This document shows, piece after piece, positions 904-37,761 of a stretch of DNA of 37,761 bases. Source of the DNA: a virus. The first letter of the stretch is position 1. The number at the start of each line of letters is the position of its first letter. The position numbers were made by a program, and so were the translations under genes. The stretch covers positions 1 through 37,761 of the IMG/VR virus record IMGVR_UViG_3300037193_000209; one strand, given 5' to 3'. Below the pieces are notes generated by a model. The model searched no databases, was not told where the DNA came from, and saw nothing but the letters and a program-made list of their open reading frames with translations.

Positions 904-915
904 TACTACTATCGC
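904..915 (-). promoter_or_regulatory. Dispersed 12-base element, copy 11 (before membrane genes)
   Basis: Perfect copy, 50 bases before the 149-aa membrane protein and just downstream of the terminator at 941-979. Confidence 0.75.
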
Positions 916-940
916 CCAGATATATCCTCACGGCTTACGA

Positions 941-979
941 CAAAAGGCTGTCTCCCAGTCAGCGAGAGACAGCCTTTTG
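941..979 (-). terminator. Terminator after holin candidate
   Basis: Perfect 14-bp inverted repeat (941-954 with 966-979), 11-base loop. The stem ends in AAAAGG/CCTTTT, so it could work in both directions. It lies 12 bases after the holin stop and before the next element copy. Confidence 0.82.
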
Positions 980-991
980 GGGGCGAGGGGT

Positions 992-1384: not shown

Positions 1385-1398
1385 AGTAAGCCTCCAGG

Positions 1399-1410
1399 TA
1401 CTACTATCGT
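1399..1410 (-). promoter_or_regulatory. Dispersed 12-base element, copy 10 (before holin candidate)
   Basis: 11/12 copy (first base A instead of G), 14 bases before the ATG, directly upstream of the GGAGG ribosome site. Confidence 0.72.
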
Positions 1411-1412
1411 AT

Positions 1413-3455: not shown

Positions 3456-3457
3456 AG

Positions 3458-8036: not shown

Positions 8037-11000
8037 CTATTTCTCTGATCTGGCGTTGTTCATGTAACCGATCTGACGAATAGCCTTAGGCAGAGAAACA
8101 GAAGGCTTCTCAGGAACAGGGTTGATCATCTTCAACTCCTGTACATTCACGCTGTAGTCATAGATCGGCTGTACTCCGCTGGAAGACAGAACTGCGGCAC
8201 GGGATCCCAGGGATGGGAGAGAACCGCTGAGTCCAGATCCAGAGATGAGGGACTTCAGGGCACGAGACTCCTGAGGATCCAGTACGGCTTCTGGCTTTCC
8301 AGAAAGGTTGATAGCCGCTCCACCGTTAGGGATCCATCCACCGTTGTCATAGAGCTTGGGGATGACACCACCGTTCTTCATGGCCCAGTGAACGTGGTCC
8401 CAGTGGTCTGAGCGCACCGGCTCGCCCCAGTAGTAGTTTGCACCATTCATAAGCTGGCGCGGTCCTGCTGGGGAGTAGATAAGCTCACGAGAGTTCGGGA
8501 AGTTGCGGCGGATCCAGTTGAAGATTTCCATCGACGGAGTAACGTCAACGGCGCGTCCCTGAGCGTGGTAGGAACGCACACCTGTGGAAGTCATAGCACC
8601 CGGACGGAATGCAGAGAACAGGCTGGCACCAGGGAATGCGTTACGAAGAATATTCCACTGAGTACTCCATCCCAGGGCGTTTCCAGGTCCACCTCCACCC
8701 GGGAGAGCGTTCCATAGAGAATCGACCTTGGAGGCCAAGCTGTTGACAAGCTTGACCGGGAACTTGGAAACCATCTGTCCCCAGTTGCCCCCGCCAATGC
8801 CGTCCATCATAGGGGCAATGAGGTTCTTCAGACCATTAGAAACGTACTTAGCAGGATTCAGGAACAGATCCAGAGGGGAAGAGGAAGCGCGGTCAACCGT
8901 GTCCCCACCTAGGGAGATACGCTTGGAGCGAGTAGGTCTTCCTACACCCTTTGTGACGTTACCCTGAATGTCTCCATAGACTCCACCGAACGCAAATGCC
9001 TGACCTCTGCGCGCACGCTTGTTGAGTTCATCAATACCGGCCTTGCCTCCCATCATCTTTGTGAACTCGGGGCGCATGATAGCCTCGCCACCGGAAAGGC
9101 TGAGGCGTCCTGCTGTGGGGCTGTAGAACTCGTGTACGTCACGACCTGGGGTGTAGCCCGGCATGACTCCACCCTTGGCGAATCTGACCCTCGGAAGGGA
9201 CATATTGAGTCCCAGGGAGTCATTTACAGTGTTCCAGAAGGTGCGGATACCGTTGTTGTAGACAGTCTCAACAACTACCTTGACAGGTCGGCGGAACTTA
9301 TCGGTGATGGTCTCCCATCCCTTAGTGATTCCTCTCAGGATGGTGTCGAAGCCGGAACGCATTCCTCCCCAGAAGCTGTCCCAGTCTCCGCGTAGAGGGG
9401 CAGAAAGAATTCTCCAGGCACCGCGAATACCGTTCCAGGTCTTGCTCCAGTTGATTCCAAAGTTGCCTAGAACTCTGGAGAGGATGGTGGAGAGACCAGT
9501 CCAGAAGGTGTCCCAGTCGCCACGGAGTGGCGCTGTAAGAGTTCTGAAAGCGATCTGGATTCCTAGCCAGGTCTTGTTCCAGTCGATTCCGAACAGTCCC
9601 AGGACGCGGCTGAACGTATTATGCACTCCGCCCCAGAAGGTGTCCCAGTCGCCACGGAATGGGGCGGTGAAGGTAGTCCAGGCTGTGTTAAGTGCGCCCA
9701 GAGCCAGATCCCAGTCGATGCCCAGCTTGTCCAGGATGAAAGAGGCTAGGTTCTGAACGCCTGACCAGAAGGTGTCCCAGTCTCCTCGGAATGGAGCAGA
9801 CCAGGTATTCCAGATCTTCTCAACTCCCGCCCAGAAGGCGTCCCAATTACGGATAAGATCCGCGCCGAAATCGTACCAGTAGGTCGCCAGTTCGTCAAGG
9901 TATCGGCTGAATTCATTACCCCAGGGGGTCATGTCTCTTACAAGATCCTCTAGCCAGCCTAGCGGGGTAGAGGTCTCTCTGTCCCCGAAGCCCATTCGGG
10001 TGAGAAGCGTAGAAGGATCGTTCTTCAGCTTATCGTCAACCTGAGCCGCACCTTCCCCAGGTCCGGCTTCGAACATGGAGGAGAGGGCAGGAACAACATC
10101 ACTCAGGATGGTGAGAAGTGAAATCACTCCTCCGATCCATCCCAGCCTTCCGCCCAGCTTTCCTAGCCCAGCGAAGAAACCTGAGATTCCTCCCCACTTG
10201 AAAGTCTTGAATCCGGCGAGAAGACCTAGCAGAGAGGTAAGTCCCGTGAACTTACCGACAAAGGCGACACCAGCGGCGACACCTAGGAATCCTAGGAGCC
10301 CCTGTAGGATGCTCTTGTCGATCTTTGAGATAGCTCCGGCTACAACCTCGAAGAATCCTGAGACAACTCCGAAGAAAGCCTCAAAAGCCGCGCTTCCACC
10401 ATTTTCTAGAATTGTGTCGATGGACTCGACAATGCTGGTAAGTGCGGAGATGAACTTCTCATCGATGTCAGTCTCAGCCAGAGTATCCAGAAGTCGTCCG
10501 ATGGCCGGTCCCAGATCCTCACGGAGGAGCTTTACAAGATCCTGAGCATCCTGGATGTTCTCAGGATCCATCATCTCGTCGGCCAGCCAGGAGAAGAAGT
10601 CACCGAAGAGGCCCTTGACCTCGGTTAGAAGAGGCTTGACATCTTCTAGGTACTGCTGGAAAGGAGAGCCCTCTTCTCTAGCGGCTTCGGATGCTTCCTT
10701 CCATGACTCGGTAAGGTCAAGCAGACCCTCACTGATCCAGTCACCGAACTCAGACGAGGCGGCGCTGTAGTTGAAGAGGGTAGCTCCCACATTCTTGATG
10801 ATCTGCCACCAGCGCTCTAGACGCTTCTGCACATCCTCAAGCCAGCGGGCTAGGGATCCGGTTTCACGAGCATCCGCGATGAAGTCAGAGAAGTTCTGAG
10901 CCCCCTCAGCGAATCCGGTCGTCATCCAGTCTGTGAACGGTCCAGCCGCGATAGTGATGTCCTTGAGGGCATCTGCGATGGAGAGGAATCCTTCTCCAAG

Positions 11001-12918: not shown

Positions 12919-12930
12919 TACTACTATCGC
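12919..12930 (-). promoter_or_regulatory. Dispersed 12-base element, copy 9 (before tape measure)
   Basis: Perfect copy overlapping the GT stop codon (its TAG TAG supplies tandem stops), 22 bases before the tape measure ATG. Confidence 0.75.
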
Positions 12931-14620: not shown

Positions 14621-14632
14621 TACTACTATCGC
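14621..14632 (-). promoter_or_regulatory. Dispersed 12-base element, copy 8 (before major tail gene)
   Basis: Perfect copy in the 85-base gap, 58 bases before the major tail GTG. Confidence 0.75.
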
Positions 14633-17286: not shown

Positions 17287-17298
17287 TACTACTATCGC
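17287..17298 (-). promoter_or_regulatory. Dispersed 12-base element, copy 7 (before joining genes)
   Basis: Perfect copy between the glutaredoxin stop and the 130-aa head-tail joining gene, 13 bases before its ATG and just ahead of its GAGGAG ribosome site. Confidence 0.75.
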
Positions 17299-17299: not shown

Positions 17300-17542
17300 T
17301 CAGGCGGCTACTTGCTCGATGAAAGCGGGATCAAAGCCCGGGACGTGCTCTCCGTTGTAGTAGAGAACAGGGGCCTTCTGGTATCCCCAGGAAGACACTA
17401 GCTCTAGTGCCTCCGGTGTGGTTGTTACGTCAATCTTCTGGTAGGGGATCTTCTTTGCTATTGCGTGACGCTCTGCCGCATTGCACTGAACACATCCTGG
17501 CTTGGAGAAGATGGTGAGGGTGGGAATATCGATTTCGGGCAT
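17300..17542 (-). CDS. nrdH: Glutaredoxin/NrdH-like redoxin
   Basis: 80-aa thioredoxin-fold protein. The active site CVQC (C17, C20) is preceded by FSKPG, and cis-Pro lies in QKAPV near residue 58; the CVQC form is typical of NrdH, which reduces class Ib ribonucleotide reductase. The length is normal. AGGAG lies well spaced before ATG 17542. It is out of place in a structural module: the neighbours are a glycanase and head-tail joining genes, so it is probably an accessory (moron) gene. It could support dNTP synthesis or disulfide state during infection. An element copy follows within 2 bases of its stop. Confidence 0.9.
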   Translation of the reverse strand: MPEIDIPTLTIFSKPGCVQCNAAERHAIAKKIPYQKIDVTTTPEALELVSSWGYQKAPVLYYNGEHVPGFDPAFIEQVAA

Positions 17543-18501: not shown

Positions 18502-18505
18502 GGAA

Positions 18506-20963: not shown

Positions 20964-20975
20964 TACTACTATCGA
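20964..20975 (-). promoter_or_regulatory. Dispersed 12-base element, copy 6 (after capsid terminator)
   Basis: 11/12 copy (first base T instead of G). It lies 28 bases before the 208-aa gene and about 70 bases after the capsid terminator, where transcription must restart. Confidence 0.72.
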
Positions 20976-21044
20976 GCTTCGCCTACCGACGAAACCCTTT
21001 GGAACTACAATCTTAGCGTAGATATGGGCTTATTGGCTCAAAGG

Positions 21045-21067
21045 AAAAACCCCCTCCGAAGAGGGGG
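21045..21067 (-). terminator. Intrinsic terminator of major capsid gene
   Basis: On the minus strand CCCCCTC, loop TTCG, GAGGGGG, then TTTTT: a 7-bp GC-rich stem with a stable UUCG tetraloop and a T run. It starts 15 bases after the capsid stop. The opposite strand also has a T-rich tail, so it may be bidirectional. Confidence 0.92.
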
Positions 21068-21082
21068 CCTTTCTTTTAGAGC

Positions 21083-22120
21083 TTACGCGCCGACGTTGAA
21101 GTAGGCGAACTGCTCTGGGCGGTTTAGAACTGGGAGCATGTTCCATTCAAGAAGATACTGGCGACCAGAAGGATCCTTGTCCTGCCAGGTCTTGGCGAAC
21201 TTACCCGTGAAGCCCTGAGGAGCCTCAAGGTCAGCGGTTGGTCCCTCGACAAGCTCGAAAGGACGACCCGCGGTGAAGTTACCGATGATGATGTGGTCAT
21301 CCTCAAGGAACTTCTGCTCAGCACCTGGATCGGTAGGAGCGTCCGTGTATGCGGCACCAGCGGCGTCGAATACGGAATCCTGGATCTTCCAGTCCAGACC
21401 GAGGAATCCAGGTAGTACGCCCTCACGGTAGTACTGATCCTTCATGCGGTCGGAGAGGAGGACGGCAGGAGCGGTACCGGCGTGAGCGAACGAATCGAAG
21501 ATGTAGGAAATCGTCTCTTCGTTAGCGTAAGCCTCGGTAGCGGCAACCTGTCCGTCACGGAGGATGAGGCGCTTCAGAGTACGAACATCAGCGATGATCT
21601 GCTCTGGGGTAGCCTCAGCCCAACCACCGGTTACGGAGGTGGATCCCTTGTGGGAGGCTGGCATCTTGTAGTCAACGCTAATAGCAGGAGCGTCACCGTT
21701 CTCAGGGATGTCAAGAGCACCGGTGAACATCTGCCAAATGAGATATTCGGCAAAGTTGTCGAAGCGGGTGTTGAGGTCCGTAATCTCCTGGAGAACGGCA
21801 CGCTCAGCGTTTACCTTGGCGAACTCACCTGGGGTGCGTAGCCAGTAAAGGGTCGTAGGTTCGAATACCTTCTTCTCACGGAGGTAGACGAAGCTAGCGG
21901 CCTCGGTCGAACGTCCGAGGCGAGGCACGATGTGGGCCTCAGAGTTAGGAACGTTAGGACGGGCGATGGTGCGGCTACCACGGATTACGTCCCACTGAGC
22001 CGTTGGGAACGGATGTGGCTTCCTGCTGATGCGGTTAAGCATCGTCAGGGTCTCCGGTGCGGTGAACTTCTCAACCACACCCAACAGCACCGTAGGCTGG
22101 AAGAGTGAAATGTCAGGCAC
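21083..22120 (-). CDS. Major capsid protein
   Basis: 345-aa coat protein of the lambda gpE-like HK97-fold family, forming the icosahedral shell. The N-terminus (FTAPETLTMLNRI), the P-domain region and the segment FDNFAEYLIWQMFTGALDIP are family-like, and the length is close to lambda gpE. It starts with GTG at 22120, with TAGGAG 6 bases upstream. It appears to have its own transcription unit: an element copy lies 121 bases upstream, and a strong intrinsic terminator (UUCG-capped 7-bp stem plus T run) starts 15 bases after the stop. A monocistronic unit fits a protein needed in hundreds of copies. No sign of truncation. Confidence 0.92.
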   Translation of the reverse strand: MPDISLFQPTVLLGVVEKFTAPETLTMLNRISRKPHPFPTAQWDVIRGSRTIARPNVPNSEAHIVPRLGRSTEAASFVYLREKKVFEPTTLYWLRTPGEFAKVNAERAVLQEITDLNTRFDNFAEYLIWQMFTGALDIPENGDAPAISVDYKMPASHKGSTSVTGGWAEATPEQIIADVRTLKRLILRDGQVAATEAYANEETISYIFDSFAHAGTAPAVLLSDRMKDQYYREGVLPGFLGLDWKIQDSVFDAAGAAYTDAPTDPGAEQKFLEDDHIIIGNFTAGRPFELVEGPTADLEAPQGFTGKFAKTWQDKDPSGRQYLLEWNMLPVLNRPEQFAYFNVGA

Positions 22121-22241
22121 TGGATTCTCCTAAGGTAGAAATGCCTATCTACAGGGTCTCAGCGACATTTACAATGTCCGGTCTGCACCACTCCCGAGGG
22201 AGTCACTAGGTTGACCTAAGTTTGAGTTTTGGACTTACGTA

Positions 22242-22253
22242 GTCTACTATCGC
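22242..22253 (-). promoter_or_regulatory. Dispersed 12-base element, copy 5 (before major capsid gene)
   Basis: Core GCGATAGTAG perfect. It lies 121 bases before the capsid GTG and just downstream, in transcript direction, of a 9-bp hairpin at 22284-22307. Confidence 0.72.
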
Positions 22254-22773: not shown

Positions 22774-23295
22774 TTAAGCCTTGACCGTGAGGCCAGCGGC
22801 TTCACCAAGAGCGGATAGACGGGCAACCTCACCGACTACAACTTCATCGTGGGTCTCTTCCTTGAACTCCTGGCCCTTCTCGGCAGAGAGTTCTACGATT
22901 GGCTTCTCAGGAAGAAGCTCATCGAAGAGTTCCGCGTTGGAAAGCAGAAGCTTGAGGCTGGAGTCACGCTTGGCTGGGGTGATGAAACCGGAGGCAACCA
23001 GTTCATCAACTCGCTTCTCAGCCTTGGCGGTAGCGGCATCCTGAACCAGGGTGTCAACCTTGGCGGATAGTTCAACATTGGTGTCTACAATGCTGGCTAC
23101 GGCGGCTACAATGTCCTCGGTTCCCGAAGCATCGTCAGCACTGAGCTTGAGTACGCCAGAGTTAGAGAGCTTGTCCTGAAGCTCTGCGGAGAGCTTAGCA
23201 AAGTCGCCAGCGCGTGCCGCCGCCTGCTGTAGCTCAGGAATGTCGATGCCGTGCTCGTCGCGTGCGACAGCAATCAGCTCGTCAAGATCCATCAT
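22774..23295 (-). CDS. Nested scaffold protein (internal start in protease gene)
   Basis: In-frame internal gene giving 173 aa that begins MMDLDELIAVARDEHG, identical to residues 190-362 of the protease fusion. The start is supported by AAGGAG with 6 bases to the first of two adjacent ATG codons, the best ribosome site in the reading frame. A perfect copy of the dispersed 12-base element lies 47 bases upstream, inside the protease linker, where it is read as Asp-Ser-Ser. The arrangement parallels lambda C/Nu3, in which scaffold is made from an internal start of the protease gene. The product would be an internal scaffold needed in many copies per procapsid. It is probably read through to the decoration gene, which has no element of its own. 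Confidence 0.8.
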   Translation of the reverse strand: MMDLDELIAVARDEHGIDIPELQQAAARAGDFAKLSAELQDKLSNSGVLKLSADDASGTEDIVAAVASIVDTNVELSAKVDTLVQDAATAKAEKRVDELVASGFITPAKRDSSLKLLLSNAELFDELLPEKPIVELSAEKGQEFKEETHDEVVVGEVARLSALGEAAGLTVKA

Positions 23296-23862
23296 AGGAT
23301 TCTCCTTAGTTGTTTTGGCGGCGGTCAATACGACTGCCTTACTACTACTATCGCTCGCAGATGCGGCGATTACTTCCTGGAAATCATCCAGGTCTGTCAG
23401 GTGCGGTCTGTTGGTGATCGCAACGTGCAGAAGAGTTGGTCCCGCCTTGGTGTTTGTGCGGGTATCGGTGTAATCCAGGGAGAGCATTGCAGAAGCTCCA
23501 AGAAGCGTCTTGCCTAGCTTCTGAGCGGCAACTTCATCTCTTGCATCGATGACGGCATAAGCCTTTCCGTCCTCGACCTCTAGTCCCACGACTTCACCTA
23601 TATTGCGGAAGGGGTCCTCAGAGTGGGCGTTGTTGTCACCTACGACCGGGGTCTGAACGATGGGGGTGACCTTCTTCTCGAAGTTCTCCGAAAGCTTCGC
23701 TAGGAACTCGTCGGTGATTTCGACCTTGCCACCCTTGATTCCAGGATAGAAGAGGGTTCCCTTGGACAGGATGTGCTTGCGGAACAACTTTCCCGACTTG
23801 GTGCGCGAAAGTGCGACAAAGGAGTCATCCTCGCCGGGTACGTAGACTAGATCATCGCTCAT
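22774..23862 (-). CDS. Capsid maturation protease with C-terminal scaffold
   Basis: A 362-aa fusion: about residues 1-165 are a prohead protease and about 190-362 a helical, acidic scaffold. The protease part has NNAHSEDP (H80), GASAMLSLDY (S124 or S127) and LLHVAITNRPHL, the last much like the end of Mu gpI-type protease domains. The scaffold part is coiled-coil-like and rich in Ala, Glu and Asp. The ATG at 23862 has no Shine-Dalgarno sequence: the 12-base element ends 3 bases before it, and an in-frame TGA lies further upstream with no other good start between. It may be translated from a leaderless message. An internal ATG at 23295 with a strong ribosome site would give free scaffold. The protease cleaves scaffold during head maturation in this family. 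Confidence 0.88.
   Translation of the reverse strand: MSDDLVYVPGEDDSFVALSRTKSGKLFRKHILSKGTLFYPGIKGGKVEITDEFLAKLSENFEKKVTPIVQTPVVGDNNAHSEDPFRNIGEVVGLEVEDGKAYAVIDARDEVAAQKLGKTLLGASAMLSLDYTDTRTNTKAGPTLLHVAITNRPHLTDLDDFQEVIAASASDSSSKAVVLTAAKTTKENPMMDLDELIAVARDEHGIDIPELQQAAARAGDFAKLSAELQDKLSNSGVLKLSADDASGTEDIVAAVASIVDTNVELSAKVDTLVQDAATAKAEKRVDELVASGFITPAKRDSSLKLLLSNAELFDELLPEKPIVELSAEKGQEFKEETHDEVVVGEVARLSALGEAAGLTVKA
23343..23354 (-). promoter_or_regulatory. Dispersed 12-base element, copy 4 (inside protease, before nested scaffold)
   Basis: Perfect 12-base copy within the protease reading frame, 47 bases before the internal scaffold ATG. Here it is translated as part of a Ser-rich linker, so coding need alone does not explain it. 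Confidence 0.75.
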
Positions 23863-23865: not shown

Positions 23866-23877
23866 TACTACTATCGC
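23866..23877 (-). promoter_or_regulatory. Dispersed 12-base element, copy 3 (before protease)
   Basis: Perfect 12-base copy only 3 bases before the protease ATG, with no ribosome site between. If GATAGT in it acts as a -10 box, transcription would begin at about the ATG, giving a leaderless message. Confidence 0.75.
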
Positions 23878-23882
23878 CCATA

Positions 23883-24155: not shown

Positions 24156-24465
24156 GGTAACCCTCACCCTTCAAGAACTTGATGTAGGCATCACGACGGT
24201 CTTCTGGTAGCTGTCTAAGAGCCCAGCGTCCCTTATTTGAGGTGGAGACAATCCACTCATCTTCCTTCTCTTCAATTCCTGTTACGAAGAGGGTGAGATT
24301 CATGGAAGGGTCTGGGATCAGTAGTAGTACAGCTAGTTCGTCATTCTCTGGTTCGAAGAACCTGAGAAGAACGGATCCGCTGAAATCTCCTACCTCGCTG
24401 ACAGCCAGGGCTACATTCTTGAAAAACTGCTTCGACTTCTTCTTTAGGTCATCTGCCTGATTCAT
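24148..24465 (-). CDS. Unknown small protein coupled to giant gene (105 aa)
   Basis: I do not recognise this protein. It has 105 aa with a basic amphipathic N-terminal helix (KKKSKQFFKNVALAV), then a beta-rich core (SVLLRFFE, LAVLLLIPD, LTLFVTGIEE, EWIVST) and a C-terminal helix; there are no transmembrane segments. The ATG overlaps the stop of the 2853-aa gene by 4 bases (ATGA) and has GAAGG 6 bases upstream, so translation is coupled to the giant protein. That coupling suggests a partner, chaperone or immunity role for the giant protein, but this is inference from position only. Its stop region overlaps the next gene. Confidence 0.75.
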   Translation of the reverse strand: MNQADDLKKKSKQFFKNVALAVSEVGDFSGSVLLRFFEPENDELAVLLLIPDPSMNLTLFVTGIEEKEDEWIVSTSNKGRWALRQLPEDRRDAYIKFLKGEGYHV

Positions 24466-27400: not shown

Positions 27401-30400
27401 TTTCCAGTACGCCATCCGTAGGCTCATACCCGTAAGTGGTCTCAAATTGTGCCTTGAGGTCAGCCTTCGTGATCTTGTCAGGATTGTCCTTGTACCAGTC
27501 GAAAGCCTTTTGAGTGTTACCGTAGGCCGTCCAGTTCTGAGGGTAGTCTGTGTCCTCAAACATGCTGTCATAGGACTTTGCCGGAACGATGTTATCCGTC
27601 CAGGAAATGGGGTCGGACAGAGGCGCATCACCATTCTGCTTACGCTGAAGAGCCTTTGCAGAAAGAAGATCTACCTGCCCCTGGTTCTCATTGTTCTTGT
27701 GGTAATGAATCCACAGACGCTTTTCACTGTTAGTGAGGTACGTAGGATTCTGCATCTGTGCAGAGATGAGGTAATTGTTTACCTCATCGAGGGACCAATC
27801 GGTAGGCGTAAGGTTGGACCAATCTCCCTCAACCGTTCCTACAGGCTTCTCTCCGGGTACAGCGGGTGCCCACTTGATCTGATGAGTTTCCTCATTATCA
27901 GGGTATCCGGGGTGTGCATACCCCTTAGGAAGGGACTTTCCTGCCGCAACAGCCGAATTGAATTCAAGGTCATAAGCCTTCTTGAAGTTTCCGTCCTTGA
28001 TTGCCTTCATCCAGTCCAGCTTTGTCTGCTTGGACTTCATGGTTGTAGGAAGCTGACCGATTTCAGTGCCGTCACCGAACATGGCAGAAATCTGCTTAGT
28101 CATGGTGGTCATTTCACCGACAGAAGCGCTGTAATAACCGGGAATTTCAAAAGCAGAAAGGGCTACTGGCTTCTTCGCGGCCCCCATGTCATCGAATTCA
28201 AAGATGGCTGAGGCATTTGACTCCGGAGGAGTAGTGTCTACCGTAGCAAGAAGTGCAGAAAGGTGATCCTGAAGGTACTTCTTATTGTCCTCAATGGTGG
28301 GCGTATCTCCGTATACTTCCTTGATCTTCTCCTTGGCAAGGTTCTGATCCATCTTGTTCAGGCCGTGGGCGGCAAGATTCAGCGTAGATGCATCGGAGGT
28401 GTCCATCGCATTCTTAAACCCTACAAGGTTGGGAATGGTGGTCTCTATACCGAAGTAGGTAACATTACCGGAGTACCCCTTGGGCACAACAGACGTAGCC
28501 GTGGAGTCAAGCAACTTACCCGTGAGGAACTTTGTCTTCAGGGCAGACTTCTTGATTTCTACTGGCTCGGCCTTACCCAAGGCTTCGATCTTGAACTTGC
28601 CCAGATACCAACCATTTAGGTAATGACTGTCAGAATTGACCTCGGATCCGTATTCATTGATCCACTTGCCGTCCTTACGGGTAAGGGTATTTCCCAGGTA
28701 GTTGGACGAAATCACCGCTCCGTCAGGCGCGGACGCGATGAAATCACTATCTGGCTTGGTGCCCACCTTCCACTGTTCCCAAGCCGTGAGCGGCTTGGTG
28801 TGAAGAACCTTGTCTCCGGTTACCTCGTAGATCTGAGCCTTCGTAGACTTAGGACTTCCCAGGTAGTACTTGCCGTCAGGAAGATCGTTGATGTCTCCCA
28901 CCTTCTTGGCGGTGGAGGGGGACTTCTTCAGAGACTCGACAGTGGAGACCTGAGGCGGCTCATTCCAGCCCTGAATCTTGTTCCAGCCCTCGTCCCACTT
29001 CTCCTTGACCTCTTCCACAGTCAGAGCGGTTACCTTGCCCGCAAGACCCTGATAGATACCGGAACCGTCAGAGTTCACATAGATGTGAGTCTTTCCGGTC
29101 TTGGTGAACTTTCCTGTAGGAATGTTGTGAGGGTTCTGAGGAACCTCAGGGGTAAGGATGAACGCGCCGCCCGGAGTAGCCACGGCGGTTGCTACAACAT
29201 CGTCCGAATGAACGCCGTTGAACCCTGCAATGGTCCAACCGTCATCGTGCTTCTGGTAGACGTGACCGTTGCTTCCCTTAGCAATTTGGTACAGAGGGAA
29301 GTTCTTCAGGTCATCTAGAGTCTTCAAAGGCTCCGGGTTAGTGTCTACTCCTGCCTGATTCTTGTCGGCGGTGGAGGTAGAACCGTTGAAGGTGATTTTC
29401 GCCCCATTGATATCAAGGAGACTCTTCATCTCTTCATCAGTGAAGGCATATCCAGTACTTCTGGTCCAGATAGTCTCTCCGCTATCAAGCGTGGACTTGA
29501 CATAATCACGCTCTGTATATGTAATGGAGTTGCTGTAATGAACGGATTCCCCGTCCTTTACAGAGTCAAGATGCTCAGGATTTGAAAGGATGTCTCCCTT
29601 GATAAGCAAAGTTCCTTCAAGAAGCTCCTTCTCCCAGTCGGCAAGCTGTCCATCCTCTGAATCCTCGGAGGTGCTAGGAGCATCTGCGTGCTCATAGCTA
29701 TTACCGAATAGAGACAGTTCCTTCGCAAAGACCTCTGCTGACAATCCATTACCCCAGGAATTTTGGGCCTTCCAGTTTCCCCCTTCAGTCTTCTCGAAGA
29801 TCTGAGTTCCAATCGAGAACTTCTTTCCGACAGGGAACTTATCCAGATCCTCTTCAGTGAGTTCCTTGATCGGCTTGGAGTAGATGTCCTCAGATTCAGA
29901 AGAGTCGTCGGGGGCGTCTACATACTTCAAGTAGTTGCTCTGAGCGGAGGGAATCAAGGCGTCCGTCGAGACAACAGAGCCGTCGCTTTCCCAATTATCC
30001 TCGGACATCTTGGTCCAAGTGTTCTTGGAAGGGAGGTGGTAGACCTTCTGACCAATGCCCATGGCCTTCAGAGCTTCCTCGGATACCTTGTTCTCCGTAG
30101 AAGTCTTTTCAGCCTTCAGGTTTTCGGCCTCCTCGGAAGAGATAGCTCCCATCTCAGCCATCTTGTCCAGAACGTCTGTGGACGAATTATCTCCTCTGTC
30201 AGCTTCTGAAGGAGACTTTCCATCTCCCTCCTTCAGAAGCTGGAACCAGATGCCCTCAAAGAAGCCCTCGTTGATGGTTTCACCATCAGACTCATCTTGC
30301 CAAAGGCCCTCTTCGATCTTGACCCATTCTGGACCGTCATCAAAATATGGGCTGTACTCCTTGAGCACAGTTCCAATTTGCATCTGAGGAGCCTCGTCAC

Positions 30401-33023
30401 CTAGGACAGTGTAGTCCGGATGAGGAGGTTCTGAAGTCTCGCCGCTGTCATCTGAAATAGCCTGAGCGTCAGCATCATTCTCACTAGAAGAAGACTCGTA
30501 ATCCTCAAGCTTCTTCTTCAGAAGGTCAAGGAACTTCTGCTTAGTGATCGTCTTGTCCTTGTTGAACCCAACAATGTCATTGGGAGACAGTTGACCTAGG
30601 GGGTTGCCCTGCTTGTTCAGTTCGGACTTGAAGATCTTGCCCTGGTAGTTCTCCAGGATGTTGATGGCATTCTGAACGTCGGTCTTGGTAAAGTTACCAC
30701 CCGTCACACCGGTTTGCGTGGTCTTAGGCGTACCAGATCCGATACGGATGTCTGCGGGCTCATCAGTCTTCTCAACTACAGCCTCGTCCTCAATACCGAT
30801 TCCGGACTTGAGGTGCGCGATGAGAGCCTTCTTGGGAGACAGGTCAGGGTAGGCTTCCTTAGCCTCAATCTGCACTGTTTCAAGATATTCCGGGTTAGCC
30901 TTCAGAGGGTGCTCATCTGGCAGAGACTTCAGTCCGTACTTGACCTGGAATCCGGTGTGACCCTCTAGGGCAGAGATAGCGGACTCCACGTCCTTCTTCG
31001 TCATGCCCGTATTGCTCTCGTCCAGGCTCTCAAACTGAGGCTTATCGTCTACCTCAGGGGTTTCTTCCTTTGACTTCTTACTAGATGGAAGATGCTTAGC
31101 CTGGATAGAGTCTACAATTGCCTTGGCTTCAGCAATGCCTGCACCGGTTGTTACCTTGGCGATATCAGCATTGAGGTCTTTGAGAACTTCGGTAGTTGCG
31201 TTTATCTTCTTAGTGATGACACCCTTAGAATTCAGGTGCTCAAGTACCTTGTCAATAGTGCTCTGAGGAACCTTGAATCCAGCGTGCTCCTCTGAAGCGG
31301 GCTCATCGTCTACGATCTTGCCGTCAGGGACATAGCCATCGTAGGGATCGGAAGGCTTCTCAGCCTTAGCCTTCTTCTTAGTAGCAATGTAGTAAGTCGC
31401 AGAATCATCACCTAGAAAGTCTTCAGGCTGCCACATGAAGTTAGTTGTTCCCGAAGAATAGGTGCTGTCCTCGTTCTTGATAAAGAAAAGAGGGTCTACG
31501 GAATCATTGAAGACTAGTGCGTCTCCGGGCTCTAGGGCGTCCAACTGCTCTATAGAGCTAAGCATGCCCTGGGTCTCGAATCCCTCGAACTCAGGGAGTT
31601 CTTCCGTATCGGGAGCCTTGTCAGAAGATGTTGTCTCATCTTCTTCGGAGTCGTCAGGCTCTGGAGAAACCTTCGGCTCAGGTGCTGGAGCTTCCTCAGC
31701 CTTAGGAGGCCCCTGGCGGATGACCCGCTGACGGTCTTCTTCCTTCTCTACAGGCTGACTCTTCTTGGACTCCTGCTCCGCATCCTCGGGCGTCCAAGGC
31801 TCCTTGGAAATGAAGCCTTGGCGGGCAGAATGAGCTACATCAGTGGTGGAGTAGGAAGTACCGTCCTTGGAATACCACTGATCACGCTCCTTCTCCAGGG
31901 GGCCTAGCTTGTCGTGATAGAGAACAGCAAAGTTATCAGCCTGGAAGACATCCTTTTCAGAATCGGCAAGATTGGCCTTAGCAATCTCTTTCTGAGATTG
32001 CTCCTTGGTCTTACCCACAGAAGGGTTACGAAGAGGGTCTGACTTTTCGGAGGACTCAGCCTCTTCCTCATTGACATCTTCGGAAAGAAGGGATCCGACA
32101 AGCTTCAGATTTCCAACAGCTACGGGAGTCCCCGTGGCACTGCTAACCCAGGAGTCGTCTTCCTGCTTTGTGAGAATTACGTCATGAAGTTTGAGCTTCT
32201 TGCCTGCTGGGAAGTTGTTCAGCGTCTCTTCTAGCTCCTCTGGGGTCATCGAAGAGAAGTCAGTCTGCTCCGGGGAAGCTCCAGAGGTGAGGTCGAACCC
32301 ACCGTTGTCAAACAGGGGCTGAAGATCGTCGTCCGTGAGGGTGACTCCTAGATCCTCATTGATCCAGGTGTTTTCGGAGTTCTTCGTGAAGACGGACTGA
32401 CCATCCTTGCTTAGGACAGAACCCTGCTTTTCGTCAGAGAGCTTCTTCGACTCCTTGACATCGAACTCCTCGACCGTGTAAAGGTCATCTGAGCCCTCCA
32501 GCGAAGAGAACTTGTTCTTGAGGACAGGCTGGAGATATTCAGGAACTTCTACCTCGCCCTCCTCATTGAAAGCGTGGACAGTACCATCCGGGTCCAGAAC
32601 ATACGCCATGTTGGCGTTGTTCTTGGGACGGATCAGCTTGGAGTTGAGGGGTGCAGAGAATGAAGATGCACCGACCTTGAAGGAGTTGGGTCCAGATAGG
32701 GAGGGAGTCTTGACAGCAACCTGACCGGGAGTGCTGTTGTAGTTACTGGAATCACTAGCCTTCTGTCCGGGATTGATCTTTCCCGTCTGAGGATTCTGCG
32801 AGGCTACATTCTTGGGAGCGGAAGCAGACTTGGGAGTAGCTGACTTAAGCGCGCCCTTAGGAAGCTTGCCGCCGTTCTTTGCCTTGGCGGCATCTTCCAT
32901 GTCCTTGGTGATGATCGTGCCAATGGGCTGACCAAAGACCTGAGCACCCTCAGGGGTGGCGACACGACGAATACGGTTGGCCGCGAGTTCAATGAACTCT
33001 TCCTCAGACAGGAACTGGGTCAC
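24462..33023 (-). CDS. Giant multidomain virion/effector protein (2853 aa)
   Basis: No known single family spans this protein. It starts at GTG 33023 with TAGGAG 5 bases upstream. Residues about 18-37 hold TPEGAQVFGQPIG, shared with the portal tail. Residues about 110-1490 are acidic, low-complexity linkers alternating with many degenerate units of roughly 50 residues, each with a G-h-h strand and a conserved Trp (for example EGGNWKAQN, DDGWTIAGF, EDNWESDGS), plus helical modules. Residues about 1900-2110 look kinase-like: GKKYYYKWW with K1932, then LDWMLQNDDTKADN (D2016, D2021, N2022) and GIDK (D2035), as in HipA/PI3K-like kinases. The last 190 residues have LTHST (H2668), SSHQIYTR (Y2722) and GIEFVIF (E2798), possibly an ADP-ribosyltransferase H-Y-E triad. 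Placed among head genes, it is probably packaged and injected. The domain calls are inference from motifs; that the gene is real is certain. Confidence 0.9.
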   Translation of the reverse strand: MTQFLSEEEFIELAANRIRRVATPEGAQVFGQPIGTIITKDMEDAAKAKNGGKLPKGALKSATPKSASAPKNVASQNPQTGKINPGQKASDSSNYNSTPGQVAVKTPSLSGPNSFKVGASSFSAPLNSKLIRPKNNANMAYVLDPDGTVHAFNEEGEVEVPEYLQPVLKNKFSSLEGSDDLYTVEEFDVKESKKLSDEKQGSVLSKDGQSVFTKNSENTWINEDLGVTLTDDDLQPLFDNGGFDLTSGASPEQTDFSSMTPEELEETLNNFPAGKKLKLHDVILTKQEDDSWVSSATGTPVAVGNLKLVGSLLSEDVNEEEAESSEKSDPLRNPSVGKTKEQSQKEIAKANLADSEKDVFQADNFAVLYHDKLGPLEKERDQWYSKDGTSYSTTDVAHSARQGFISKEPWTPEDAEQESKKSQPVEKEEDRQRVIRQGPPKAEEAPAPEPKVSPEPDDSEEDETTSSDKAPDTEELPEFEGFETQGMLSSIEQLDALEPGDALVFNDSVDPLFFIKNEDSTYSSGTTNFMWQPEDFLGDDSATYYIATKKKAKAEKPSDPYDGYVPDGKIVDDEPASEEHAGFKVPQSTIDKVLEHLNSKGVITKKINATTEVLKDLNADIAKVTTGAGIAEAKAIVDSIQAKHLPSSKKSKEETPEVDDKPQFESLDESNTGMTKKDVESAISALEGHTGFQVKYGLKSLPDEHPLKANPEYLETVQIEAKEAYPDLSPKKALIAHLKSGIGIEDEAVVEKTDEPADIRIGSGTPKTTQTGVTGGNFTKTDVQNAINILENYQGKIFKSELNKQGNPLGQLSPNDIVGFNKDKTITKQKFLDLLKKKLEDYESSSSENDADAQAISDDSGETSEPPHPDYTVLGDEAPQMQIGTVLKEYSPYFDDGPEWVKIEEGLWQDESDGETINEGFFEGIWFQLLKEGDGKSPSEADRGDNSSTDVLDKMAEMGAISSEEAENLKAEKTSTENKVSEEALKAMGIGQKVYHLPSKNTWTKMSEDNWESDGSVVSTDALIPSAQSNYLKYVDAPDDSSESEDIYSKPIKELTEEDLDKFPVGKKFSIGTQIFEKTEGGNWKAQNSWGNGLSAEVFAKELSLFGNSYEHADAPSTSEDSEDGQLADWEKELLEGTLLIKGDILSNPEHLDSVKDGESVHYSNSITYTERDYVKSTLDSGETIWTRSTGYAFTDEEMKSLLDINGAKITFNGSTSTADKNQAGVDTNPEPLKTLDDLKNFPLYQIAKGSNGHVYQKHDDGWTIAGFNGVHSDDVVATAVATPGGAFILTPEVPQNPHNIPTGKFTKTGKTHIYVNSDGSGIYQGLAGKVTALTVEEVKEKWDEGWNKIQGWNEPPQVSTVESLKKSPSTAKKVGDINDLPDGKYYLGSPKSTKAQIYEVTGDKVLHTKPLTAWEQWKVGTKPDSDFIASAPDGAVISSNYLGNTLTRKDGKWINEYGSEVNSDSHYLNGWYLGKFKIEALGKAEPVEIKKSALKTKFLTGKLLDSTATSVVPKGYSGNVTYFGIETTIPNLVGFKNAMDTSDASTLNLAAHGLNKMDQNLAKEKIKEVYGDTPTIEDNKKYLQDHLSALLATVDTTPPESNASAIFEFDDMGAAKKPVALSAFEIPGYYSASVGEMTTMTKQISAMFGDGTEIGQLPTTMKSKQTKLDWMKAIKDGNFKKAYDLEFNSAVAAGKSLPKGYAHPGYPDNEETHQIKWAPAVPGEKPVGTVEGDWSNLTPTDWSLDEVNNYLISAQMQNPTYLTNSEKRLWIHYHKNNENQGQVDLLSAKALQRKQNGDAPLSDPISWTDNIVPAKSYDSMFEDTDYPQNWTAYGNTQKAFDWYKDNPDKITKADLKAQFETTYGYEPTDGVLENYETSMAAKAVQAYFEQKEAEYQAELLKPVYTKTGSQTKGSHPGAFYTDQFGKKYYYKWWNNEDKLSNYRLEIEHAGNKIGRAFGFKTADSKLVNVDGHYGQMQDVVDGIGDMTGFDYSTITPDLIADVEGEHLLDWMLQNDDTKADNIILTADGRAVGIDKARSFKDFGAVNWDHNAPDGNLTVYTRLYTAIKNGQVSKETLDAAYMKIRKNAQRMQKMSDNKFFDLIEEGSKNRESWTISYTIDGKKVSQDLEGLKAAFADQKSKLVEKIEAEWAKLYKQAGHGELPEIVIPALGEGIISGLDSPELHEQVFQAKASGKTAMIGGSQIIGGTALLWTEQETTGVEHVMGEMFLAPKAQTDALAFWTKHAGNVATETPSTKFGPYDTYGTSMVQAAKTISTHSVDGAYNTSTIETFEQAKEKLSKELAEWKSDLPSNATANGLEAYKFSTGAIVPKEHLAQYKLMLDYYDSKYSEVHQAYLDKVNSPIVSSYDPIDLSPDLEVLTSPEGDASYTAMFNGQWLKSEPSGVSVVVLEKDEIKNLKSSGWKSNIEAGTKKLATPMGASFKVNMTTFERTGTFDAKTNVKTVTGQEVDSGTKGSEYQATLPTGEVIYWRNADHTNTARGQHGKLSFKVPNAADPSQLSASMARIQEFLDEMGIENRAADHTDAELTYWREMYGVLENRNHNGPNSGKFKKTYASMKKKVEELGGDPKHFLENLSASMTPDEEVQYWRDLWSAEFGDKVDELIQTEGYLPKFDHQNLHDPELTTGKPYWERFDISAQEIFDMDVWLTHSTGNVSGSLGELESGALLGGEERIRQLGKIFTGGGYGQSSALSDQNNGSSHQIYTRMVSGGTLKNSNNYVLSPRLLLRTRTYSLTGDQYGKLDSRKSDTQSDLKDLVNNHKDGGGETQTPHSATVLDGIEFVIFNDYEASAREEQIQKLKAQGLETIRGLPVEERLIFRKDLKKMIEKVKKEGLL

Positions 33024-33110: not shown

Positions 33111-33122
33111 ACCTACTATCGC
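33111..33122 (-). promoter_or_regulatory. Dispersed 12-base element, copy 2 (before giant gene)
   Basis: Core GCGATAGTAG perfect, last two bases differ. It lies 87 bases before the GTG of the 2853-aa gene, in a 105-base AT-richer gap right after the 72-aa gene. Confidence 0.7.
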
Positions 33123-34132: not shown

Positions 34133-34135
34133 TCA

Positions 34136-36016
34136 TCACTTCTTTCCGGGCTTGTTGAGGTTCTTCATCACTCGAAGGAAGTCACTAGGCTTCCAGGAAC
34201 CTGAGTAGTGGTAGACAGCCTCTCGAAGAGCCTTCATAGCCTTCTGAGCCTCAGCCTTGTTACCGGCGCGCAAGAATCCCTCATACTGCTCCTTGAGAGA
34301 CATCAGGCGCTCCACGGTGACCTTGCGCTTTCCGCCCTCTTCTCCCTTTCCGTGACCCTTAGGAATTTGGGATCCGATGGGAACACCGAAGCGCTCAGCA
34401 CCTTCCTGTGTACGTACCGTGCGGTAGTCACCGGATACAGGACGGGCTAGCTCTAGAAGTTCAGATGCCATATCGAGAAGGGAGTTCTCTGCGGAGAGCT
34501 TGGCGGTCTCTTCTGGAGGAGTAGTTGGTGCAACTGGAGGCTGTCCCGTTACTTGACTCTCGAAGTCGGCAATCTGCTGTTCAGGAGATGGAGCCTGTCC
34601 TGGGAGGATAGGGTTACCCATGGCGTCCTTAGGAAGAGGCTTTCCATCGGCATCCAGACCCTGAACAAGGTTGGCGGCTTCCTTCTCCACTGCCTCACGC
34701 TCCTCGACTGCATCCCAGTCGATTTCGAGGCCCATCTCCTTGGCCATCTTCTTCTCGATTTCACGAATGAACTCGGGAGTGACGGTGGCGCTCTGTCCAG
34801 CCGTGGACAGGGAGTCGAAGGTGTTGTGGATCGTAGCCTTCTGCTCATCCGTCAGTTCAGCCCACTGGAATCTTGGGTACTTTCCGCCCTTGAAGTTCCA
34901 GTCGATGAGACGAGGGATGATGTAGTGATTGATGCTGTTGGCGATGTCATCCATGATGGCGCGAAGCATCAGAATGAACATGGAGTCACCGGGAGCCCCG
35001 AAGCTTACAAGCTTTGCGTCTCCACTGCCGCCACCTGTGTCCTTGTCGAAGAAGTTAGCGAGAACGCTCTTCGACATCTGGTTGTTGTGGTGGTTGATGT
35101 AGTCCAGGAACGCAAAGGATCCACCCTCCTTCAGCATCTCCACCTTGAAGTTCTCAGGAATCATCATCCACTGAGCGATAGCAAGGTTGGAAAGGTTTTG
35201 AGCGAAGACACGCTTCTGCTCAGTCGTGGCGTTGGCGGGAAGAGTGCCTACACGAGTGCCCACAGCGGCGCGCTGAGCCGCAAGGTGAGCAATGTAGTAC
35301 ATCTTGACCTTCTTATCGTAGTGATAGAAGGCGCTCTGGAAGAACGATACACCGTAGTACTTGCGTTCTTCCTCCTGTGCCGCGAAGTAGAATGCGCGAT
35401 CACGAGGAATGTGGATGTCAATGGTCTTACCATCACGGTAGGCGCGCTGACGGAATCCCTCGAAGTGTCCATCCTCATCCTCGACAACGGTGATTGTGTT
35501 GGGCTGACGATATGCCAGCTTGCGGAGGACGTACTTGCCCTTCAGAGGTCCGTAGGTGGCGTAGTCGTATACCTGCTCAAACGGAGCGAAGCCGTCAAAG
35601 AGTCCCTGAAGCAACTGACTCATGAATCTGTGGAAGGTTACGGACATTCCACCCGAAGCGGGAGGAAGAGTGAACTGCTGAGTGATGAACTCAGCTTCAG
35701 CCTCTCCGCCCTCTGCGGGCACGAAAGAGGAGTTACTAAGTGCCGCCTTGAGAGGCAGTGTCAAGAGACGGTAGAGAGCGCGGGCTTGTCCGTCCAAACG
35801 TCGCATGGCGACAAGCTGTGCGACGGTAGGGCCAACCTCTTCGCCCTCTTCGCGCAGAAGCTCTCGTAGAGCCTTGTCCTCACGGGCAGACTTGGACAGT
35901 CCCTCGGAAAAGGGCACAGCAAAAGGAAGATTGCTCTCGACACCTAGCTCGATGCCCCAGTCTTCCTGGGCAGGCTTAGGACTGATATCGAGATTCTTCT
36001 TGTCTTCACCAGCCAT
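34136..36016 (-). CDS. Portal protein
   Basis: Dodecameric ring at the capsid vertex through which DNA enters and leaves and to which the connector binds. The 626-aa length and the position directly after terminase fit. The core around FGAPGDSMFILMLRAIMDD and the following NHYIIPRLIDWNF segment resembles Mu gp29/DUF935-type portals. After about residue 450 comes a Pro/Gln-rich linker and then a basic tail. At about residues 531-550 the tail carries the motif RTQEGAERFGVPIG, echoed in the N-terminus of the 2853-aa protein. The ATG at 36016 overlaps the terminase stop and has a GAGG ribosome site 7 bases upstream. It is followed after 3 bases by the MuF-like gene. Portal identity is confident; the role of the C-terminal tail is unknown. 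Confidence 0.9.
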   Translation of the reverse strand: MAGEDKKNLDISPKPAQEDWGIELGVESNLPFAVPFSEGLSKSAREDKALRELLREEGEEVGPTVAQLVAMRRLDGQARALYRLLTLPLKAALSNSSFVPAEGGEAEAEFITQQFTLPPASGGMSVTFHRFMSQLLQGLFDGFAPFEQVYDYATYGPLKGKYVLRKLAYRQPNTITVVEDEDGHFEGFRQRAYRDGKTIDIHIPRDRAFYFAAQEEERKYYGVSFFQSAFYHYDKKVKMYYIAHLAAQRAAVGTRVGTLPANATTEQKRVFAQNLSNLAIAQWMMIPENFKVEMLKEGGSFAFLDYINHHNNQMSKSVLANFFDKDTGGGSGDAKLVSFGAPGDSMFILMLRAIMDDIANSINHYIIPRLIDWNFKGGKYPRFQWAELTDEQKATIHNTFDSLSTAGQSATVTPEFIREIEKKMAKEMGLEIDWDAVEEREAVEKEAANLVQGLDADGKPLPKDAMGNPILPGQAPSPEQQIADFESQVTGQPPVAPTTPPEETAKLSAENSLLDMASELLELARPVSGDYRTVRTQEGAERFGVPIGSQIPKGHGKGEEGGKRKVTVERLMSLKEQYEGFLRAGNKAEAQKAMKALREAVYHYSGSWKPSDFLRVMKNLNKPGKK

Positions 36017-37761
36017 TTATGCCTCTATCTGAAAATCCTATGGGAAGACCCCTAGGATCCCCGACTACCTCGTATAGTTCGTTTTCTCCGAACAATGGGC
36101 TGAATGCCTCACCGGTAGCAAAGTATGGCCCACCTACTTCTACTATCGCGCCATTTGGGTCTTCCTCGCCACCGACAGTGATTGCGCCCACCACAGAGCA
36201 CACGAAAGCGTCCGCCAGATCCTTGGATCCGTTCGGTGGATGATCGATCTTTCCGTTGTCGATTCGGCTCAGAGCTTCTAGCTCATTGAAGAGAAGTTGG
36301 TCGAACGGAGTCTTGAGCCTATTGTCAGATGCGATGTCCTTTAGGGCGGACCAAAGGGAAGGATCACGATCCGTGCTGACCTTATCTGTCTCGATTCCGT
36401 GACGCTCAAGAATCTGCATGCTGTCAGTACTCTGGAATCCGTCATAGGTGATTTGGCCAATGACAAAACCCCGATTGATCAACTCGAAGATCAGAACGCG
36501 AACCCAGCGGATCTGAATCTCACGCGCTAGGTGGTTGCCGTCTTCATCCTTGGCGGCGGAATCAGCCTCGAACGCTACCGTGAAGTCATTCCTGATGATG
36601 GGTCTGATTTCAGTCTGGATGTACTTAGTACCCTCTTCATCGAAAAGCACAGCATCGTACTCTTGCCACTTCTCAACGTGCGACATCGAGATACCTGCAC
36701 GGTCAGCCTTGATAGCAAGGTCTGCATGGAGGGCATATCGAGCGCCCTGTACAGGCTGGAAGTCATCAGAGAAGTGGAAGACTGGCTCCCAGTTCTTCGT
36801 CTTCTTGCCCGTGCGAGGAGAGACGAACTCCACAGTATGATAATCCACGGTAAGAGGCTGTTCGTCCTTATCCACGGCCTCTCGGAAGATGCTCATGTTC
36901 TTGAAGAACGGGTTGGTAGCACGCTTAGGCTTGCACTCATACTTGGCGGCAGACCCGTCAGGATCCTTCTCGTAATCCTCGAAGAAGTCTTCCTTGCCCT
37001 TGATTCGAGGATTGACTTCCCACGTTGCATAGGGTCCAGAGACGTAGTGAATGGACTTGGATCCGTACTTCTTGTTGGATTCCTTGCCCTCCTCAGTCAA
37101 CCGCTGGATCGTGGATCCCTGGTAGCGGGGGTAGGAGATAGCTACGCGCTTATAGGTCTTAGGGAAACGGGTGCTGGCGGAGGTCTTGATCATCTCAAGA
37201 ATGGACTCAGCGGAGGTAGAAGCCTCACGTAGCTTCTTACCGGTACCCACCATTTCATCTTTTGCCTTGAAGGCGTCAATCTCGTCCGCAACACCAAGCA
37301 TGATGTTAAGACCTTCCTGACCTTCAGCGTCAGAGTGTCCAGACACGGCTTCGATGTTCTTGGCGTACTCGATAACACCCTGCTTGACCGCCGCCTTGTC
37401 TCGGAACCATCCGCTCTTCACAGCCACGGTCATGGGCTTGAAGAATGCTCGGTTAGCCTGGGGGGCGTTGGCGGCGATGTTGAGAAGGTGGATGGAGTCA
37501 GACTCCGGCATCTCAAAGTAGATCTGTGGAGACTTCAGGCATAGGAGCATATATGCAACTCGAAGGGAAGCCCATCGGGCTACAGCGTCCTTACCGGAGC
37601 CCTTTCCCCACTGGAGGGTGATGAGGTTAGCGCTGGGGACATCTGCGGACCAATACTCGGATCCGAATTCCTCAGCCATTCGAGGGTACAGGTCAGGATA
37701 GTAAATACGCTCGATGACACGAATAGCCATCTCCTGTTCATGGGAGAGGTTGATATTCGAC
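36006..37761 (-). CDS. terL: Terminase large subunit (partial at 5' end)
   Basis: ATP-driven DNA-packaging motor and nuclease that loads phage DNA through the portal. Counting from the first in-window ATG (37730), a Walker A-like WGKGSGKD lies at residues 41-48 and a Walker B-like LGVADEID at about 145-152. A C-terminal RNase H-like nuclease is marked by HADLAIKADRAGI and by GSKDLADAF near the end. The frame stays open from 37730 to the window edge, and the AGGAG before that ATG abuts it with no spacing. The true start is therefore probably upstream, outside the window, and the gene is given here as 5'-partial. Its 3' end overlaps the portal start by 11 bases. An 11/12 copy of the dispersed 12-base element lies inside its last 150 bases. 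The family call is secure; the start is not. Confidence 0.93.
   Translation of the reverse strand, partial: SNINLSHEQEMAIRVIERIYYPDLYPRMAEEFGSEYWSADVPSANLITLQWGKGSGKDAVARWASLRVAYMLLCLKSPQIYFEMPESDSIHLLNIAANAPQANRAFFKPMTVAVKSGWFRDKAAVKQGVIEYAKNIEAVSGHSDAEGQEGLNIMLGVADEIDAFKAKDEMVGTGKKLREASTSAESILEMIKTSASTRFPKTYKRVAISYPRYQGSTIQRLTEEGKESNKKYGSKSIHYVSGPYATWEVNPRIKGKEDFFEDYEKDPDGSAAKYECKPKRATNPFFKNMSIFREAVDKDEQPLTVDYHTVEFVSPRTGKKTKNWEPVFHFSDDFQPVQGARYALHADLAIKADRAGISMSHVEKWQEYDAVLFDEEGTKYIQTEIRPIIRNDFTVAFEADSAAKDEDGNHLAREIQIRWVRVLIFELINRGFVIGQITYDGFQSTDSMQILERHGIETDKVSTDRDPSLWSALKDIASDNRLKTPFDQLLFNELEALSRIDNGKIDHPPNGSKDLADAFVCSVVGAITVGGEEDPNGAIVEVGGPYFATGEAFSPLFGENELYEVVGDPRGLPIGFSDRGINGW
36138..36149 (-). 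promoter_or_regulatory. Dispersed 12-base element, copy 1 (before portal)
   Basis: Reads GCGATAGTAGAA on the minus strand, 11/12 match, with the core GCGATAGTAG intact. It lies inside the terminase frame, 121 bases before the portal start. The weakest case, because it could be chance within coding sequence, but its orientation and distance match the other copies. Confidence 0.45.

Follow-up and report, generated by a model that had tools for sequence, protein, structure and literature searches.

Repeated -10-like elements ahead of structural genes in an actinophage fragment, and a candidate flagellar-type sigma factor encoded by its relatives

INTRODUCTION

Phage-encoded late sigma systems are known in T4 (gp55) and in SPO1 (gp28/gp34). 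The accessible text of two papers gives, for sigma28, the consensus TAAAGTTT-n11-GCCGATAA (PMC2859248) and, for WhiG, the same flagellar specificity, with TAAA at -35 and GCCGATAA at -10 (PMC8325347); a further paper, available in part, treats phage sigma factors and dormancy (PMC9429907). In Microbacterium phages of clusters EC and EI, repeated intergenic motifs occur together with a sigma gene and, in the accessible portion of that work, the authors leave the function open; the start-associated sequences (SAS and ESAS) of cluster K mycobacteriophages and of cluster EF sit, according to the same portion, at the ribosome-binding site (PMC7302621). Here, we analyze a short element repeated in a single orientation in the IMG/VR virus record IMGVR_UViG_3300037193_000209 (37,761 bases; "the window" below is this whole stretch), a fragment of an actinobacterial phage that has Microbacterium phage Magritte (133 kb) among its relatives. 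The elements probably serve late promoters as their -10, and the probable reader is a flagellar-type sigma encoded by the phage, which would diverge along with them.

Relatives of the window are encoded on 141 viral-contig stretches, and the best 80 loci were kept; whole-record counts were made in 18 relative records and are given as gene strand/other strand. The relatives are mainly metagenomic records, some of them fragments, and counts across such related sequences are not independent. Where the loci are long enough, gene content and order are largely common to the window and its relatives. Among the papers listed by literature searches, whose coverage is limited especially for subscription journals, we recognised none on these elements or on transcription in Magritte.

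RESULTS

The repeated element in the window

The exact 10-mer GCGATAGTAG occurs nine times in the window, each time on the minus strand. With ACGATAGTAG (at 1401) and TCGATAGTAG (at 20966), the nine become 11 copies of CGATAGTAG, all on the minus (gene) strand with none on the plus strand; a second-order model expects 0.028. Allowing one mismatch gives 13 matches vs. 1.41 +/- 1.19 expected, and 13 or more occur in none of 100 shuffles; the two near-matches of the plus strand (2935 and 14781) are at chance level. Among the coding-strand 8- to 11-mers listed, the 14 top-scoring ones are all pieces of the CGATAGTAG word. The gaps from element to next start are 3, 13, 14, 22, 28, 50, 58, 87, 121, and 121 bases, with an 11th of 47 bases for the copy that lies within the protease gene, given the inferred scaffold ATG at 23295, and a gene start, known or inferred, follows each of the 11 copies. 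The repeated one-orientation element is real, and the preliminary description, with its nine exact 10-base cores, single orientation, and placement 3–121 bases ahead of gene starts, is borne out on these three points. A scan of the window for sigma-70-like promoters gives a number of sites not above that of shuffles.

Lineage-specific words at common positions

A loose per-locus word search returned the element in the window, in L007–L010 and, more weakly, in L017, and elsewhere mainly repeats and coding bias; it was superseded by exact-word counts and by anchoring at the protease start. The near relatives (L007–L010) have the window word or close variants at the matching sites. More distant relatives have other words there: CGATATCCCTG in Magritte, GGCCGATCTTC in L021–L023, and GCCAATGGTAG in L040. 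The words GGTGGAAT of L027 and AAGGTCGAG and GTGGTGTCGG of L020 were dropped, their repeats being distant from the anchored gene starts.

Whole-record counts are similarly partitioned. GCGATAGTA occurs 17/1 in G001 (the closest whole relative), 10/0 in G003, and 4/0 in G002, with 0 in the remaining 15 records. GCCGATCTTC occurs 8/0 in G006 and 8/0 in G017, with 0–5 matches (both strands summed) in each other record; CCAATGGTAG is found 7/0 in G007 and CGATATCCCTG 10/0 in Magritte, each with one match elsewhere. In the repeats of the relatives, which lie on one strand, a (C)CGAT-like core is followed by a tail specific to the lineage; several lineages read CCGATAA or CCGATTA and, in G005, G008, G012, and G015, only the core with a looser tail (AA, TA) recurs. 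Five candidate promoter codes may be listed: GCGATAGTA, CGATATCCCTG, GCCGATCTTC, CCAATGGTAG, and CCGATWA. Since the word at the same sites differs by lineage, the word is a property of the lineage and the position one of the family. Loss of the word with gene order kept, which the preliminary description regarded as telling against the element, does occur literally (GCGATAGTA is at 0 in 15 of the 18 records), but in several of these relatives the sites are filled by lineage words sharing the core. The same description spoke of a late region, which is too narrow, two copies of Magritte's element (68581 and 70406) being within its tRNA-bearing region. The Magritte annotation has 26 tRNA genes in this region (L088, 18365–26104), directly followed by a Ro-like RNA-binding protein.

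The spacing at the protease start

The pattern CGAT-N7..11-RTG (ATG/GTG) is present upstream of the protease in 44 of 55 distinct regions, vs. 23 of 403 regions before 15 other genes (a sum over rows to which gene g198 alone contributes 9/43) and 149 of 3250 random stretches. In the 54 distinct core-bearing protease regions (the distance pattern permitted 11 to 17; 10 loci are without the core, and duplicates and contig-end-cut regions were excluded), the distance between the C and the start codon is 12–14 nt in 50 and 13 or 14 in 43. A C precedes the core in 43 of the 54; the core letters and the start codon are, at these sites, selected by the search pattern itself.

At base 14 past the C, the 37 pooled sites of five related genomes have A in 26 and G in eight. 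A purine is present there in all 11 sites of the window and in 14 of 17 in G001, with a less clean picture in Magritte (6/10). An ATG is present at position +13 or +14 in 5/17 sites of G001 and 1/11 of the window, and at +13 in 3/10 of Magritte. A transcript start about six bases past CGATAGTA would fit these sequences. With a start at that distance, the mRNAs of the protease and of some other genes are suggested to be leaderless, and the AGGAG before the gene at 17273 would be just within the mRNA.

A site embedded in codons of the protease

The copy at 23343 is 47 bases ahead of the in-frame internal ATG (23295), which itself follows a ribosome-binding-like sequence and probably begins a nested scaffold. 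When distinct proteases are aligned (the alignment is loose around this site and made of related sequences), the codon at the site can be read in 59: GAT in 48, GAA in six, AAT in three, others in two, and GAC in none. When the residue is Asp, the codon is GAT in 48/48, with C as the preceding base in 47/48; over the same proteases, Asp is encoded by GAC 1394 times and by GAT 380 times (79% GAC). With GAT used every time, a reason at the protein level is unlikely to explain the choice. The residues around the site vary (SDSSS in the window, VDIPE in Magritte, ADLDR in L021) and track the DNA word of the genome. The tails at the protease start and at the scaffold site agree in at least three of four letters in 18 of 49 cases, vs. 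a permutation mean of 6.7 and a maximum of 16 in 2000 draws, several of the start-site picks being wrong by the rule of the test (L007 and some contig-end-cut loci). The scaffold site looks like a promoter set into coding sequence through codon choice.

A sigma-70-family protein in the relatives

The preliminary description had suggested a search for a phage-encoded sigma-like or DNA-binding protein. With TIGR02937 (sigma-70 superfamily), 17 of the 18 relative records give a match at E <= 10, and in 16 a protein of the family is above the cut-off of 42.9 bits. In Magritte, the sigma-70-like proteins are gp47 and gp60, both annotated just as "DNA binding protein." phmmer searches around the sigma matches find gp47-type proteins in 16/18 records (the weakest in G014, E 5e-9). 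All nine gp47-type proteins scanned pass the TIGR02937 cut-off, with gp60 below it. A gp60-type protein is encoded in L088 (3644–4345), with homologs in five other records.

Among the nine gp47-type proteins, the NCBIfam model FliA_WhiG (TIGR02479) ranks first in seven and second in two. With Pfam, region 4 is over the cut-off in 9/9, region 2 is present in eight (three over the cut-off), and region 3 in five (below the cut-off). The best PDB relatives of the gp47-type profile are WhiG (6pfv, E 3e-31) and FliA (6pmi, E 6e-31). The AlphaFold2 model of the G001 protein (mean predicted local distance difference test, pLDDT, 84; predicted template modeling score, pTM, 0.48) matches sigma factors, including sigma28; its TM-scores to the query are low globally (0.27 to 0.38), presumably from a differing placement of the domains.

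By coordinate arithmetic, about 22 to 30 kb separate the capsid gene from the sigma gene, which is the downstream one, in 13 of 16 records (four of the 13 need contig ends to be joined; the exceptions are G005, G015, and G016). The window and the records without a sigma gene, G002 and G010, all extend no further than 15 to 22 kb downstream of the capsid, so that absence of the gene is expected there. In region 2.4, compared by eye with the words in 15 sequences, G007, the sole CAAT lineage, has an unusual IIHFAIQMWQRDEDYLQR, and both proteins without arginine at the position that we take to be FliA R91 (number counted by hand, with its presumed role) belong to the GCGATAGTA group. It is suggestive that residues of region 2.4 may track the promoter words, in a set with too few sequences for a test. 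The T7-like RNA polymerase model PF00940 has no match in the 18 records, and the control genomes are equally silent, so that this is no proof of absence.

A conserved RNA in the major capsid leader

Between the predicted promoter and the start of the capsid gene lies a conserved RNA (Table 1). Leaders were chosen with a GCAG-type word: of 54, L051 and L057 were dropped as chance, leaving 52, and 13 loci are without the word. In the 52 leaders, RNAalifold predicts 16 pairs, 14 of them with changes on both sides. In the structure named by eye, 91.6% of the cells pair (vs. 74.0 in shuffles), double changes occur in 158 cells (vs. 47.7), and the covariation is 0.509 (0.192 in shuffles and at most 0.150 in slid versions). 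The share of paired cells is 100% for helices 1 and 2 and 79% for helix 3.

A search with the RNA model gives exactly one copy in 17 of the 18 records (G014 is without), directly before the capsid gene where coordinates were compared (Magritte, G001, and the window). Applied to the 15 missed or dropped loci, it recovers L030 and L031, with no match below E 0.2 in the other 13. Rfam gives no above-threshold match for the leader RNA, with a single chance-level one (E 0.27), and the RNA is a candidate for a new family. In 34/52 leaders, a CGAT core precedes the RNA by 13 to 39 nt; for the 12–20 nt band, the figure is 11/52 vs. 366/10400 random positions. As to its role, one may guess that the RNA controls translation of the capsid gene or protects the 5' end.

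Other features of the window

PHROG matches in the window are terminase, portal, head morphogenesis, protease, decoration, major capsid, tail chaperone, tape measure, tail, and holin. Three stretches were folded, and two of them contain a predicted intrinsic terminator, upstream of the 904 and 20964 copies (Table 1).

For the giant 2853-aa protein (24462–33023, minus strand), which is encoded between the head genes and the MuF-like gene, neither PHROG nor Pfam gives a match; in Magritte, a protein of 1991 aa occupies that place. A protein with a glycosyl hydrolase family 16 domain (17617–18528, minus; Pfam E 8e-17) is encoded within the head–tail joining region, and a glutaredoxin-like protein of 80 aa (17300–17542, minus) among the structural genes. 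In the tape measure gene, 9355–9813 holds four repeats at 132-base spacing, and the encoded stretch is tryptophan-rich.

TABLE 1. Features of the window, with coordinates in order along the gene strand
Feature	Coordinates	Strand	Remarks
Element GCGATAGTAGAA	36138..36149	-	Within terminase gene end; 121 bases before portal start 36016
Element GCGATAGTAGGT	33111..33122	-	87 bases before start 33023 of 2853-aa giant gene
Element GCGATAGTAGTA	23866..23877	-	3 bases before capsid protease ATG 23862; predicted leaderless; core-to-start spacing kept in relatives
Capsid maturation protease with putative nested scaffold	22774..23862	-	PHROG match; Magritte gp19, at this place, annotated as scaffolding protein
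Element within protease reading frame	23343..23354	-	Predicted promoter for nested scaffold, inferred start 23295; Asp-codon nucleotide constraint in relatives
Element GCGATAGTAGAC	22242..22253	-	Ahead of major capsid leader; 121 bases before start 22120
Conserved structured RNA, major capsid leader	22155..22231	-	Covariation; no Rfam family matched
Major capsid protein	21083..22120	-	PHROG match; 62% identity to Magritte gp21
Predicted intrinsic terminator after major capsid	21044..21073	-	68 bases upstream of 20964 element; fold z -3.05 for stretch; in simple scan
Element TCGATAGTAGTA	20964..20975	-	28 bases before start 20935 of 208-aa gene
Element GCGATAGTAGTA	17287..17298	-	13 bases before start 17273, 130-aa protein, head–tail joining region
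Element GCGATAGTAGTA	14621..14632	-	58 bases before start 14562, major tail protein (named after Magritte homologue)
Element GCGATAGTAGTA	12919..12930	-	Before tape measure; provides stop codon of preceding gene
Element ACGATAGTAGTA	1399..1410	-	Before holin candidate
Predicted intrinsic terminator	941..979	-	25 bases upstream of 904 element; fold z -4.21 for stretch; missed by simple scan
Element GCGATAGTAGTA	904..915	-	Before 149-aa protein at 404-853

DISCUSSION

In the mechanism that we propose, each copy of the element would serve a late promoter as its -10. A sigma of the FliA/WhiG kind, encoded by the phage and produced earlier in infection, would guide the host RNA polymerase, the DNA would melt at CGATAGTAG, and transcription would begin at a purine about 14 nt past the C. 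A contact at -35 would be unnecessary, or else substituted by something without sequence conservation. At the protease, the transcription start would fall at or adjacent to the start codon and yield a leaderless mRNA; at other genes, it would be upstream of the ribosome-binding site. Two copies would restart transcription behind a terminator, and the copy inside the protease frame would yield a separate scaffold mRNA. Sigma and promoters would have diverged jointly in several lineages, and the phage of the window would have its own sigma gene a few kb past the left end of the window. The preliminary description had offered a phage sigma or activator, or else an RNA-level site. Its sigma part is strengthened by the sigma genes and their likeness to FliA/WhiG, by the -10-like core, and by the spacing at the protease; its RNA-level part is not retained.

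Several observations weigh against this proposal. The TAAA of flagellar promoters is not conserved about 15 bp upstream, nor is any upstream position in the 54 protease sites or in eight per-genome site sets (4–11 sites each), as already stated in the preliminary description, which saw no conserved -35 box. There is no sigma match within the window fragment, so that the pairing of sigma and element rests on the relatives. All nine gp47-type proteins are under the FliA_WhiG cut-off of 189.6 bits, with scores of 53–105 (the best, 105.2). A second sigma-like protein, of the gp60 type in 6/18 records and of neither the gp47 nor the gp60 type in two more (G012 and G015), could take part in the same task. 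The pattern at the protease start is missing in 11/55 regions, and GAT is missing at the scaffold site in 11/59 aligned sequences. The tail match between start and scaffold sites cannot separate concerted change from shared ancestry. No exact word beyond the core repeats in several lineages (as in G005, G008, G012, and G015), and a reading in terms of separate codes is therefore valid for some lineages only. Terminator-like sites are, in simple scans of the window, not above the frequency in shuffles.

One alternative is that the word is an operator near -10, bound by a phage activator that recruits the host RNA polymerase together with the housekeeping sigma. A motif confined to one strand, with lineage tails and no -35 box, would fit this equally, GATAGT matches what we take to be the A-11/T-7 pattern of a weak -10, and the Magritte annotation contains further DNA-binding proteins. 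On the other hand, the distance of about 13–14 nt to the protease start codon puts the word where sigma region 2 melts the DNA, and activators usually bind elsewhere. The core matches the -10 of the very sigma type encoded by these phages, and the 54 protease sites and eight per-genome sets have no second conserved box. We regard such an activator site as unlikely. Promoters for a host sigma of the FliA/WhiG type, or for the second phage sigma-like protein (gp60 type), would have the same known flagellar-type -10 as core, and a second sigma-like protein does occur in 8/18 records. WhiG-type sigmas are present in actinobacteria (PMC8325347, in its accessible portion). However, the tails vary among related phages and yet repeat within each genome, a pattern not to be expected from a host factor that stays constant. 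The gp60 type was found in 6/18 records, and in G001 and G006, with 17 and eight elements, the single sigma-70 match is of the gp47 type. A host or gp60-type sigma is very unlikely. Finally, a site acting at the RNA level (translation enhancer, antitermination, or processing signal in the late mRNA) would account for the constant coding strand, the nearness to gene starts, and the stop codon supplied at 12919, but it fits badly and is hardly credible, because the word would be outside the mRNA of the protease and other genes predicted to be leaderless, two copies follow predicted terminators, and the distance to the start ranges from 3 to 121 bases.

The reading of the elements as -10 elements served by a flagellar-type phage sigma can be extended, tentatively and as no more than one possibility, to an actinophage family with such a sigma, promoters without -35, at least five orthogonal -10 codes that have split together with the sigma, phages mutually deaf to each other's promoters, and a new capsid-leader RNA. 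The main reading would explain, from sequence alone, how the structural genes are switched on in a large and little-studied group of actinophages. Magritte (host Microbacterium foliorum) is a cultured relative suited to testing. The lineage words would form a natural experiment on the joint change of sigma region 2.4 and -10 element, and orthogonal expression tools for actinobacteria might result. The structured capsid-leader RNA without Rfam match comes from the same analysis.

Among known systems, the flagellar sigma factors (FliA/sigma28 and WhiG) are alike in a CGAT-centred -10 and are the families and structures nearest to the sigma-70 proteins of the relatives. The phage core CCGAT, with CCGATAA or CCGATTA in some lineages, resembles a flagellar -10 deprived of its -35; the window word GCGATAGTAG agrees with the flagellar GCCGATAA in the core only, the CGAT core being conserved. 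The differences are that the sigma would be phage-encoded, that no -35 is found, that the tail of the -10 has diverged by lineage, and that the elements stand before capsid and tail genes. The late systems of T4 (gp55) and SPO1 (gp28/gp34) share a phage sigma and a short repeated late promoter element, which in T4 is a -10 alone, whereas here the candidate sigma is of the flagellar type, in another (actinophage) family, with several lineage-specific promoter words. The motifs of clusters EC and EI are likewise repeats of one orientation near gene starts in sigma-encoding phages; in the accessible portion of PMC7302621, the EC motif (TAGaCTATaGGTgTaAgC) is different, with 18 bp, no CGAT core, and a location mainly outside structural genes. 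With the SAS/ESAS, a loose parallel drawn in the preliminary description, the link to gene starts is common, but the parallel is weak, as the element, which can be as far as 121 bases from the start, precedes the ribosome-binding site instead of sitting at it.

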